Assembly (NCBI RefSeq): GCF_900155365.1
Contig: NZ_LT699742.1
Coordinates: 143,729 to 207,728 of the forward strand
Length of the DNA stretch: 64,000 nucleotides
Origin: Collinsella bouchesdurhonensis
GTDB lineage: Bacteria > Actinomycetota > Coriobacteriia > Coriobacteriales > Coriobacteriaceae
Direction of reading: 5' to 3'
The notes under the pieces are model-generated. The model did not search any database and was not told where the DNA came from. It was given only the letters and a program-made list of their open reading frames with translations. Of the stretch, positions 36,040 through 45,702 are shown piece after piece; positions within the stretch are counted from its first letter, which is position 1, and each line of letters starts with the position of its first letter. The position numbers and the translations under genes are program-made.

Positions 36040-36128
36040 CAAGCTGGGTTTTGTTATGCGCGCGTTATCGTTTGGTATAGCGCACGTCTGTATGAAAGAA
36101 TGTTGCTTCCCGGTGCATTTTGGATGCT

Positions 36129-36431
36129 ATAGTTAGAGCGCTCATGGCCTTTTGCCGGTGCGAAATGTCCTTCTTGGCGAAGGTCCTTTTGTGCCTGGCG
36201 GCATGCCATGAATTTGATCGTAGGGTTAGAAGAAAGGCAACAGGTGAAATCTAAACCCCGACCACACAGTAGCTAACCCCTGCGAGTGCTCTTTGGTAGC
36301 TGGGCTGCACAGAAGACGCGCGCATGGGGTGACTTGCGCCGCACTTTAGCGTATGGCCGACAGCTGCATATATGCATCATCCGTTCCCTGGGCGTTTTGC
36401 GCCGTAAGGACCGAACAAGCATAGGAGCACT
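36129..36431 (+). ncRNA. Long structured leader RNA of the magnesium transport genes
   Basis: TATAGT (36130-36135) starts a roughly 290-base leader to ATG 36432, with no gene in 36040-36431. Residues 36218-36229 (TCGTAGGGTTAG) can pair with 36273-36285 in a 12-pair helix with one bulge, enclosing GGTGAAATC and CCCGACC. The same GGGTTAG (36223-36229) can instead pair with CTAAACCC (36251-36258), freeing AGCTAACC (36271-36278) to pair with GGTAGCT (36295-36301). These exclusive pairings look like a switch. A perfect palindrome TGCATATATGCA (36365-36376) lies near the start. Metal transporter context suggests a cation sensor; it does not match my memory of the M-box core. Confidence 0.5.
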
Positions 36432-38282
36432 ATGAACTATCTCTCCGAAATGCTCAAACTGCCCGTTATCGACTCGACGGGTGAAAAAATGGGTGTCGTC
36501 AACGACCTGGGCATCGCCACGGGCGAGGTCTTCCCACGCGTTACGTCGTTGGCCTTCCAGGGCCCGTCCAAGACGCCCTTCATGATCTCTTGGCGTAAAT
36601 ACGTCGACCATTTTGACGATGACGGCGTGTATCTCAAATATCCCTCGACCGACATTCGCTTCTCCTACTTGCAGCCCGATGAGGTGCTGTTGGCGCGCGA
36701 CATCATGAACAAACAGATCGTGGACACGCAGGGCATGAAGGTCGTGCGCGTAAACGATATCAAGCTTTCCGCTTCGGGCGAAAACCAGCTGCGTTTGCTG
36801 GGCGCCGAAGTGGGGGCTCGCGGACTGCTGCGAGCATTGCATCCCGCCATCGAGCGCGCGGTTTCTGCTGTGGCAAAGGCCTTGGGCAAGCCGCTGCCCG
36901 AGGATATCATTGCCTGGTCGTATATGGATCTGCTGGAGCGCAGTACACAGCAGATAAAGCTCTCCGTTTCGCATAAGACTCTTGGCGAGCTGCACCCGGC
37001 AGATATCGCCGACATTATCGAGCAGCTCGACCCGCGCCTGCGCAGCCAGGTTTTTGCACAGCTCGATACGTCTCAGGCTGCCGAGGCCATTACAGAGCTT
37101 GATGACGACGAGCTGGTTGCCGAGATGCTCGAGGGTCTTTCCGATCGCGATGCATCCTCGATGCTCGCCATGATGGACCCGGACGACGCTGCCGCCTTGA
37201 TTGACGAGCTGGATTACGAGAAGGCCGAAAAGCTTCTGCGCTTGATGGGCGTCAAGGAGGAGAAGGCCATTCGAACCCTTTTGGGTTACGAGGACGATAC
37301 CGCCGGCCGTATCATGACCTCCGAGTTCGTGGCGCTTCCCGGAACGGCCACCGTGGCCGATGCCGTCAATGCCCTTAAGCGCTTGGATGAAGACTTCGAG
37401 AGCGTCTACTACCTGTACACTACCGATGCCGACGGTGTTCTTTCCGGCGTTCTTTCCATGCGCGCCTTGGTGATTGCCGAGTCGGATGAGCTTTTGCGCG
37501 ACCTTGCCTATCGCGACGTGGTTTATGTCGAGCCCGATCGCGACCAGGAGGAAGTAGCCGAGGAGATGTCAAAGTACAACCTTGCTGCCATTCCTGTTTG
37601 CGATGAGAATCGTCACATCTTGGGCATCGTCACCGTTGACGATGCAATGGACGTCATGACCGAGGAGCACCAGGAAGACCTGCAGATCGCCGGTGTTTCT
37701 GCCAGTGGTGAAAACACGACGGGCGAGACCTCGCATGCCATAGCGTGGTTTGTGCAGCGCCAGTACTGGATTGTGGTGTGGGCTGTGTGCTCCGTCATCA
37801 TGGCCTCGGTGCTCAATACCCTTTGCGATAACTCGATGCTGTTTATTTTCCCCATGTGCGCGATGCCGGTGGTGCTTCTCGCTGCGACGCGTATGGTTGC
37901 GTTTGTGAAGAACTTCTTCCTCGAAAACGACGACGGCGATGACGAGAAACGCCCCTACCTGTGGTTCTGGCTGCAAAACACGGTGACTGGCTTAATCCTT
38001 GCCCTGGTCGTGTATCTGTGCGGCCAGCTTGTTGCCACCGCGGCGTTCACCGATATCACGGTCTGGAAGGCACAGCTGTTCATTTCGTGCTTTAACGTTG
38101 CCGCACTCGTGACGCTGCTTTCGTCCATGAGCTCTGTTATCTATCTCAAGGTGCTGTATTGGTGCGATGAGCACGATAAGGCCGTTTCGGGCACGGCGAT
38201 GCAGCTTACTTCGGTGCTTATCTCAGCAGTTCTTTTCTCTGCGCTTGCCGTACTGGCGATAGTTAGCATCATGGGGGCGTAA
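36432..38282 (+). CDS. MgtE-like protein: PRC barrels, MgtE N domain, CBS pair, atypical membrane domain
   Basis: A 616-residue protein. N-terminal PRC-barrel units (about 1-75 and 85-125) precede an MgtE N superhelix (about 185-290: LHPADIADIIEQLDPRLRSQVF, LSDRDASSMLAMMDPDDAAALIDEL), two CBS domains (about 295-425) and five predicted membrane helices from about 445. The GGNAG motif that lines the MgtE magnesium pore is absent; that position reads FPMCAMPVVLLAATRM. It may be a magnesium sensor or regulator of the transporter encoded next, rather than a channel. AGGAG precedes the ATG, and the stop overlaps the next start. Confidence 0.78.
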   Translation: MNYLSEMLKLPVIDSTGEKMGVVNDLGIATGEVFPRVTSLAFQGPSKTPFMISWRKYVDHFDDDGVYLKYPSTDIRFSYLQPDEVLLARDIMNKQIVDTQGMKVVRVNDIKLSASGENQLRLLGAEVGARGLLRALHPAIERAVSAVAKALGKPLPEDIIAWSYMDLLERSTQQIKLSVSHKTLGELHPADIADIIEQLDPRLRSQVFAQLDTSQAAEAITELDDDELVAEMLEGLSDRDASSMLAMMDPDDAAALIDELDYEKAEKLLRLMGVKEEKAIRTLLGYEDDTAGRIMTSEFVALPGTATVADAVNALKRLDEDFESVYYLYTTDADGVLSGVLSMRALVIAESDELLRDLAYRDVVYVEPDRDQEEVAEEMSKYNLAAIPVCDENRHILGIVTVDDAMDVMTEEHQEDLQIAGVSASGENTTGETSHAIAWFVQRQYWIVVWAVCSVIMASVLNTLCDNSMLFIFPMCAMPVVLLAATRMVAFVKNFFLENDDGDDEKRPYLWFWLQNTVTGLILALVVYLCGQLVATAAFTDITVWKAQLFISCFNVAALVTLLSSMSSVIYLKVLYWCDEHDKAVSGTAMQLTSVLISAVLFSALAVLAIVSIMGA

Positions 38283-39523
38283 TGCGCGAAGAGACCAAGA
38301 AAAAACTAACGCTGGCGGCCATCCTGGGCGCTATGGGCCCAGGCCTGCTCGCGGCGCTTTCTGGCAATGATGCTGGCGGTATCGCTACCTATTCCAGCGC
38401 GGGCGCATCGTATGGCTACCAGATGCTTTGGATGCTTCCTGTGATGACGATTCTGTTGATCGTAACGCAAGAGACGGCCGCGCGTTGCGGATGCGTGACC
38501 GGCAAGGGTTTGGCATCCCTTATTCGCGAACGCTTTGGCGTGCGCAAGAGCGTGCTCGCAATGGCCGCCCTGCTGATTGCAAACACCGCTGTCACCATTT
38601 CTGAGTTCGCGGGTATCGCGAGCGGTCTTGCTCTATTTGGTATTCCTGCGAGTATCTCGGTGCCGCTGGTCGCCCTTCTTATCTGGCTGCTTACCATGTC
38701 GGGCAGTTTTCAGCGCATCGAGAAGATTTTGCTGTTGGTGAGCTGCGTCTTCATTGCCTATGTGGTGGCCGCCTTTATGGCTGGCCCCAACTGGGGCGAG
38801 GTTGCCTATGCGACGGTCGTGCCTTCTGTTTCGAGTGATCCCTCGTATGTCTCGCTCGTGGTGGCAACGATCGGTACCACTATCGCCCCGTGGATGATCT
38901 TTCTGGCGCAGAGCAATGTTGTTGACAAGCACGCTACTGAGGAAGATTTGACTCTTCAACGCATCGATGCCGTGAGCGGTTCTGTCACAGCAGACATCAT
39001 TGCTTGGTTCATCATCATCACGACGGGAACCGTGCTGTTCCCGGCGGGCATCAAGATCGCCGACGCGGCGGACGCGGCGCTCGCCCTCGAGCCTATTGCC
39101 GGCGAGTTTTCGACGGTACTGTTTGCTTCGGGCCTCGTTGCTGCGAGCTTCCTTGCAGCATGCGTGCTGCCGGGCGTCACCTCAAGCGCCATTTGCGAGG
39201 CATTTGGCTGGGAGCGCGGTGCCGACCGCACCTGGGAGGAGGCGCCGGTCTATCGAGGTCTTATTACCGGTATCGTCGCGGTATCTGCGGTGCTCGTTCT
39301 GCTGCCGGGCGTCGACCTGTTCCAGATTATGATGATCTCGCAGGTGATCAACGGCGTGCTGCTTCCTGTCGTGCTGGTATTTTTGGTATTTATCGCACAG
39401 GACAAGCACATCATGGGGCGTTATCGCAACGGTCGTGCATGGAACGCTCTTACCTGGGCGGCTATTGGCATTATTACGGTGCTCACGGTGGTTATGTTTG
39501 TGCTCCAGGCACTTGGATATTGA
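38282..39523 (+). CDS. Nramp-related transporter, magnesium-type (NRMT-like)
   Basis: A 413-residue membrane protein with about 11 helices and the Nramp/LeuT-like layout. Helix 1 reads GPGLLAALSGNDAGGIATY, aligning to GPG...DPGN of Nramp: the Asp (30) is kept but Asn is Gly. Helix 6 reads GTTIAPWMIFLAQS, aligning to the MPH region: the metal-selecting Met is Ala (202) and His is Trp. Loss of this Met is a known feature of Nramp-related magnesium transporters, so magnesium is a likelier substrate than manganese or iron. ATG shares an A with the preceding stop (TAATG), tying it to the MgtE-like sensor. Confidence 0.8.
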   Translation: MREETKKKLTLAAILGAMGPGLLAALSGNDAGGIATYSSAGASYGYQMLWMLPVMTILLIVTQETAARCGCVTGKGLASLIRERFGVRKSVLAMAALLIANTAVTISEFAGIASGLALFGIPASISVPLVALLIWLLTMSGSFQRIEKILLLVSCVFIAYVVAAFMAGPNWGEVAYATVVPSVSSDPSYVSLVVATIGTTIAPWMIFLAQSNVVDKHATEEDLTLQRIDAVSGSVTADIIAWFIIITTGTVLFPAGIKIADAADAALALEPIAGEFSTVLFASGLVAASFLAACVLPGVTSSAICEAFGWERGADRTWEEAPVYRGLITGIVAVSAVLVLLPGVDLFQIMMISQVINGVLLPVVLVFLVFIAQDKHIMGRYRNGRAWNALTWAAIGIITVLTVVMFVLQALGY

Positions 39524-42286: not shown

Positions 42287-42377
42287 TGGCGGAGAGAGGG
42301 GGATTCGAACCCCCGGAGCGCTCATCACGCTCAACGGTTTTCAAGACCGCCGCATTAAACCGCTCTGCCATCTCTCC
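42287..42377 (-). tRNA. tRNA-Ser (anticodon UGA)
   Basis: On the minus strand the 91-base sequence begins GGAGAGATGGCAGAGCGG and ends CTCTCTCCGCCA with CCA encoded. The acceptor stem GGAGAGA/TCTCTCC is complete; the anticodon TGA is at 42341-42343; a long variable arm with a GAGCG/CGCTC stem is present, as in serine tRNAs; and the T-arm GGGGGTTCGAATCCCCC is perfect. It lies between an inverted copy of its own 3' end and the tadA fusion gene. Confidence 0.95.
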
Positions 42378-45582: not shown

Positions 45583-45702
45583 GCCGTGCGCGCTCGATGG
45601 GTTCGGATGACGATATGTTCCGAATCTGGTCAGGTCCGGGAGGAAGCAGCCATAAGGAGCCTCTGACGGGCATCCGGATCCATCGAGCGCATACGGCTTT
45701 TT
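45583..45702 (+). ncRNA. ffs: Signal recognition particle RNA, small bacterial type
   Basis: The apical conserved core GGTCAGGTCCGGGAGGAAGC followed by AGCCATAAGGAG (45628-45659) is the SRP RNA tetraloop and symmetric-loop region that binds Ffh. A long closing helix pairs 45583-45600 with 45680-45697 (GCGCTCGATGG with CCATCGAGCGC). Transcription likely begins near 45580 after TATA-rich sequence at 45567-45574 and ends at the T-run 45698-45703. The remainder of 45703-45883 shows no gene. Confidence 0.93.

Follow-up and report, generated by a model that had tools for sequence, protein, structure and literature searches.

Genes and promoter of the locus

The analysed window, a stretch of 64,000 nucleotides of Collinsella bouchesdurhonensis DNA, contains an MgtE-like gene (36432-38282, forward strand) and, second in the same operon and overlapping its end, an Nramp-family, NRMT-like gene (38282-39523, forward strand). 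Both assignments, already made in the original prediction, were confirmed by Pfam, which finds PRC barrel, MgtE_N and CBS domains in the first product and PF01566 (E 3.7e-90) in the second. The pairing of an Nramp-type gene with an MgtE N-domain protein in one operon is already known (PMC4072509). The membrane-domain family of MgtE has no Pfam match in the window protein, and its orthologous frame in family f2 spans no more than about 450 amino acids; judging by its domains, the MgtE-like protein may serve the Nramp-type transporter as a regulatory partner and not itself be a channel. The MgtE-like gene follows the leader (36129-36431 in the window) described below in nearly all loci checked and is regarded as its regulated target. 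Elsewhere in the window a small bacterial SRP RNA gene (45594-45689) and a tRNA (42290-42377, minus strand) were found.

The leader is probably transcribed from an extended -10-like element, TGCTATAGT (36125-36133, forward strand), recognised by its consensus; in relatives TATAGT or a similar element is mostly found 45-100 nt upstream of the leader ORF, and a complete two-hexamer promoter was not detected by a sigma-70 scan. The window species carries an extra strong hairpin (36142-36211) between this element and the ORF, to which nothing evidently corresponds in the other aligned Collinsella leaders. The only candidate for an intrinsic terminator (36169-36183) is of chance-level quality and lies upstream of the ORF, so that a terminator after the ORF was rejected.

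A short open reading frame in the conserved core

The original prediction described this leader as untranslated and as a likely cation-sensing riboswitch with GGTGAAATC and CCCGACC in its core. Both of these motifs are codons of a leader ORF of ten codons and a TAA stop (36244-36276, forward strand), GTG AAA TCT AAA CCC CGA CCA CAC AGT AGC TAA, encoding MKSKPRPHSS. An SD-like GAAAGG (36232-36237, forward strand) lies 6 nt before the start, and SD-like motifs precede the ORF in 45 of 47 representative leaders. A blastn search with the leader against 58 relatives gave exactly one match in each of 33, nearly all of them of the same genus. Except in the window's own genome, the match spans only about 36222-36298, which indicates that a short core is conserved, and this core lies upstream of mgtE at every locus that could be oriented. 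A covariance model of the core (R1) with E up to 0.1 detected it in 171 of the 395 genomes of the order and in 40 of its 123 genera, one match (L145) being discarded as a repeat-rich false positive. The conserved letters were recognised as codons by reading 80 of these loci; the core pattern is in frame at 112 of 114 loci examined, and L034 has a variant of it.

Several features of the 112 core-pattern leaders point to translation. Starts are GTG (55), ATG (55) or TTG (2), and stops are TGA (87), TAG (15) or TAA (10); length differences are whole codons in every case, and wobble positions vary in the codons for Pro, Lys, Ser and His. Codon changes relative to the consensus show a synonymous excess, with synonymous to nonsynonymous ratios of 43:16 in the 10-codon group and 17:8 in the 8-codon group and an expected synonymous fraction of 0.24; these occurrences are not independent, and when unique variants are counted significance is kept in the 10-codon group alone (p 0.005 vs 0.10). 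The excess is absent in the 11-codon group of family f2. The family f5 ORF, ATG AAA CCT CGA CCT CAC AGT CGA TGA, encodes MKPRPHSR. The KPRPY/HS motif may resemble proline-rich antimicrobial peptides (drosocin).

Two codons, Arg CGA (36259-36261) and Ser AGT (36268-36270), are invariant in all 112 core-pattern leaders, and practically so in families f1 and f5; the search pattern itself demanded them, and a looser pattern (113 leaders) agrees except for L034. Since each makes up only about 5% of the Arg or Ser codons in neighbouring genes of the window, their invariance suggests an additional constraint, acting on the nucleotides themselves or on the speed of decoding, for which slow decoding or RNA structure may be the reason. 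Constrained nucleotides, like the magnesium transport genes downstream, would also be expected of a metal-binding aptamer in which the ORF is accidental. That reading is very improbable: the whole-codon length changes, the interchangeable starts and three stops and the synonymous excess speak against it, no Rfam family matches, and in the deepest lineages the core shrinks to a six-codon ORF (MKPHSP, MKPHSI) inside the P1 helix, leaving little room for a binding pocket. On the evidence of these sequence comparisons, the conserved core is a leader ORF and not a metal-binding aptamer. What stands of the riboswitch proposal is that the magnesium transport genes are preceded by a conserved leader, regulatory in cis, whose helices exclude one another, and cation sensing by this leader, through translation of the ORF, is plausible. 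Where conserved 'aptamer cores' are met in leaders, short ORFs should be looked for.

Distribution in Coriobacteriia and relation to the M-box

Related ORFs precede mgtE throughout the class: 146 leaders were collected, with 46 distinct peptides of 6-14 amino acids, which nearly always end in P-H-S-x-stop (40 of the 46 have P at -4, and 41 have S at -2). The peptides are mostly basic, acidic residues being limited to a few f4, f6 and f9 peptides and one f5 peptide. Elsewhere in the order the peptides include MKVRKSKPHSK/M (f2), MKPHPHSI (f7), MKPHKPHST (f10), MKPHQPRSK and MKPREPHIS (f9) and MSGLDHPHSC/Y (f6), and one deviant peptide of family f4, MDDFSHSH (L159), has no proline. In families f12, f15 and f17, outside the order but within the class, ORFs no longer than MKPHSP, MKPHSI, MIPHSP or MRPFSR occur. 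When named genomes were scanned with the pattern, each of the 84 records obtained was titled as Collinsella, Enorma, Olsenella, Atopobium, Lancefieldella, Parafannyhessea, Olegusella, Tractidigestivibacter or an uncultured relative, or had no clear genus.

No leader ORF is recognisable at five mgtE loci of the class (L149, L150, L152, L166, L167); at L150, mgtE directly follows an upstream gene resembling the deacetylase. No ORF of this kind was found upstream of mgtE relatives at 13 loci from other classes of the phylum (L191-L203), two of which begin with an M-box-like sequence, as judged by eye.

The original prediction could not match the leader to the M-box, Mn, FMN or cobalamin riboswitches, and the Rfam covariance models likewise give no match; a diverged member of these or of another Rfam family was rejected. 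With E up to 10, the search of the leader returned no family apart from a retron msr match (16.5 bits, E 4.8), which was dismissed as chance. The M-box model (RF00380) has no match at the window leader and none in the sampled genomes of its own genus, is absent from most of the order and is present in 3 of the 58 relatives. Nine loci of families f9, f10, f12, f15 and f17 (L205, L178, L176, L182, L180, L153, L181, L154 and L157) have an M-box that exceeds the gathering score, followed by the leader ORF and mgtE. At L034 the M-box (756-964) is followed by a hairpin with a T run that resembles a terminator, then by the ORF and by mgtE at about 1240. The simplest reading of this distribution would be an ancestral tandem of M-box and ORF from which the M-box was later lost. 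In several deep lineages of the class the upstream M-box would add a second control, which Collinsella, having no M-box, would lack.

Mutually exclusive helices in the leader

Three helices, all on the forward strand, can be formed around the ORF. P1 pairs GGGTTAG (36223-36229), which adjoins the ribosome site of the leader ORF, with CTAACCC (36273-36279), which overlaps the stop codon and the first bases of P3. P3 is a CCCC...GGGG hairpin (36277-36329) that starts with the first base after the stop codon; in 38 of the 47 representatives the distance from the stop to its first paired base is 0 or 1 nt. P4 joins an anti-SD sequence, AGTGCTCTT (36285-36293), located within P3, to the SD region of mgtE, AGGAGCACT (36423-36431), which abuts the mgtE ATG, by nine pairs. 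P3 shares 36277-36279 with P1 and 36285-36293 with P4, and therefore excludes both, P1 and P4 being mutually compatible.

These helices were examined by a swap test, in which duplex energies of matched strands were compared with those of strands swapped between species, for 47 mutually dissimilar leaders and with 20,000 permutations. All three show strong covariation: the z values were -7.0 for P1 (control 0.4), -9.4 for P3 (control 0.9) and -10.1 for P4 (control 0.1), values that overstate independence because the representatives are related; a smaller leader set ranked the helices in the same way. In the 32-sequence alignment of family f5, P1 has 85.5% standard pairs and five pairs changed on both sides. 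Its covariation score, 0.193 vs 0.132 in shuffles, was reached by 0 of 500 shuffles, and the number of doubly changed pairs by 66 of 500. All slid registers of P1 score lower than the actual one; in L003 and L084 its 5' strand is broken at the Collinsella position. The leader is no more stable than shuffled sequences (z -0.86 for the 303 nt and +0.83 for the core), so that the fold alone is no evidence. An inner GGU-GAA-AYC hairpin, seen by eye in the Collinsella cores, was set aside as it is not kept in other families.

The original prediction had placed GGGTTAG, CTAAACCC (36251-36258) and CTAACCC at the right positions and had let the first pair with either of the other two. Comparison of orthologous leaders separates the options. 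The second, which is P1, carries the covariation given above, and the 12-pair helix that it forms around the core appears in the minimum free energy folds of both the isolated 101 nt and the whole leader. The first, which involves codons of the ORF, shows none (z -0.2 in the 47 leaders, +0.7 in the other set); it arises solely from the GGGTTAG of the window species, most others having GGGTCA at this place. A further proposed pairing, of AGCTAACC with GGTAGCT, requires a bulge, and the GGTAGCT segment lies within a species-variable stretch. P4, the helix relevant to the output, was missing from that proposal.

Proposed mechanism of regulation

The leader is probably a leader-peptide translational attenuator, in which P1 and P4 keep mgtE off and a ribosome slowed at proline at low Mg2+ allows P3 to form and turns mgtE on. 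With no ribosome on the ORF, or after normal termination, P1 and P4 would form and translation of mgtE-nrmT would be off. At low Mg2+, ribosomes would slow at the conserved proline. In standard footprints the leading edge of a ribosome is some 15 nt away from where the P-site codon begins. A ribosome with Pro(-4) in the P site would thus extend approximately to the final base of the stop codon, so that P1 would open and P3 would stay free, and a ribosome at the last codon would cover the base of P3. P3, once formed, would trap the anti-SD and translation of mgtE would be on.

Equilibrium folding with ribosome masks, averaged over 41 leaders, gives P1 and P4 as the ribosome-free default. When the ribosome stands at the last codon, P3 disappears and P4 increases, and a ribosome at Pro(-4) opens P1, with SD access somewhat above that of the terminating ribosome (p 0.007). 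Mean SD access in the Pro-stalled state is not above the ribosome-free state (0.31 vs 0.32). The layout of the switch is well supported; its direction is suggested more weakly, by logic, by the co-transcriptional order and by the need for Mg2+ import at low Mg2+.

The weak thermodynamic difference between ribosome states would also agree with an ORF that serves only for translational coupling or for protection of the mRNA, for example against Rho, and senses nothing, as would the fact that the ORF is not universal. Such a role would hardly need the P-H-S-x-stop end, the exact position of P3 and three covarying helices of which one excludes two, and we regard it as quite unlikely.

As for the signal, we infer that it is Mg2+ from the target genes, the tandem with the M-box and the parallels in Enterobacteria; stalling would occur at the conserved proline. 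An attenuator that senses an amino acid or a charged tRNA (Pro, Arg or His) instead of Mg2+ might explain the conserved Pro and His and the rare CGA codons. A leader ORF of the mgtCBRU operon in Salmonella does respond to charged tRNA-Pro (PMC8092293), and the tRNA-Arg(ACG) gene upstream in family f2 might be counted on the same side. Any one amino acid has only one to three codons in the ORF, the target is a magnesium transport operon, and in other lineages an M-box precedes the same ORF, all of which makes amino acid sensing unlikely. At f2 loci including L171, L172 and L183, this tRNA gene, whose product reads CGA, lies no more than a few hundred bases from the CGA-containing leader ORF.

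If the signal is Mg2+, the sensor is probably the ribosome itself. It is possible, and suggested here tentatively, that the peptides form a class-wide P-H-S-x-stop arrest-peptide family with the ribosome as Mg2+ sensor, which arose beside the M-box in the ancestor of Coriobacteriia, outlived it and replaced the metal-binding riboswitch in the gut families. The position of the ribosome at Pro, four codons before the stop, would then decide between P3 and P1/P4.

Comparison with known systems

Short leader ORFs, some of them proline-rich, precede Mg2+ transporter genes in Salmonella and E. coli (mgtL, mgtM/mgtP) and act on transcription elongation, via Rho or an attenuator. The window ORF differs in that no terminator-like site was detected behind it and its helices point to translation initiation of mgtE. 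In ermC, a stall in the leader ORF induced by a macrolide swaps helices 1:2 and 3:4 for 2:3 and frees the SD. The Coriobacteriia leader shares this layout, with the target SD paired to a strand that a hairpin further upstream, P3, can take over, whereas peptide, gene and signal differ.

In other bacteria the M-box (ykoK, RF00380) regulates mgtE and also mgtE-nramp operons (PMC4072509). The type of target is thus common to both, and the two stand in tandem in several Coriobacteriia; the window leader has no M-box match. The 'mgtE motif' SRC-65-1 likewise lies upstream of mgtE and has the SD in a stem; it is a riboswitch candidate reported only in Thioalkalivibrio (PMC11109978), and identity with it was rejected on account of the different taxon.

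The closest system is mgtQ of Salmonella, an 8-codon ORF before mgtB, where stem-loops 1:2 and 3:4 compete with 2:3 and slow or aborted translation of the ORF favours 2:3 and frees the SD (PMC8092293). As in the mgtQ/mgtL type, a short conserved ORF with its own SD precedes a Mg2+ transport gene in Coriobacteriia and is surrounded by exclusive helices (1:2/3:4 vs 2:3), the SD of the transporter being hidden in 3:4. The peptides are unrelated: Asp2 and Glu5 act in mgtQ, whereas those of Coriobacteriia have basic residues and the P-H-S-x-stop end, and among the peptides listed here neither homology to the mgtQ/mgtL peptides nor Asp/Glu ribosome-destabilising codons were found. Moreover, mgtQ sits between operon genes in Enterobacteria, while the Coriobacteriia ORF lies in the 5' leader of mgtE-nrmT in Actinomycetota.

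To our knowledge, leader-peptide control of Mg2+ transport is known only from Enterobacteria, and a leader peptide linked with mgtE in Coriobacteriia was not found in the literature searched, mostly freely accessible papers. The kind of regulation, a leader-peptide attenuator of Mg2+ transport, is therefore known, while the peptide family, its class-wide conservation, the P-H-S-x-stop end, the fixed geometry and the association in tandem with the M-box seem to be new. An unrelated peptide family apparently does the same job across a class with genera common in gut and mouth, among them Collinsella, Olsenella, Atopobium and Lancefieldella. The fixed peptide end, the fixed distance to the hairpin and the M-box tandem make ribosomal Mg2+ sensing through a P-H-S-x-stop nascent chain directly testable, and with it the question of whether, in the course of evolution, a metal riboswitch can give way to a peptide sensor.
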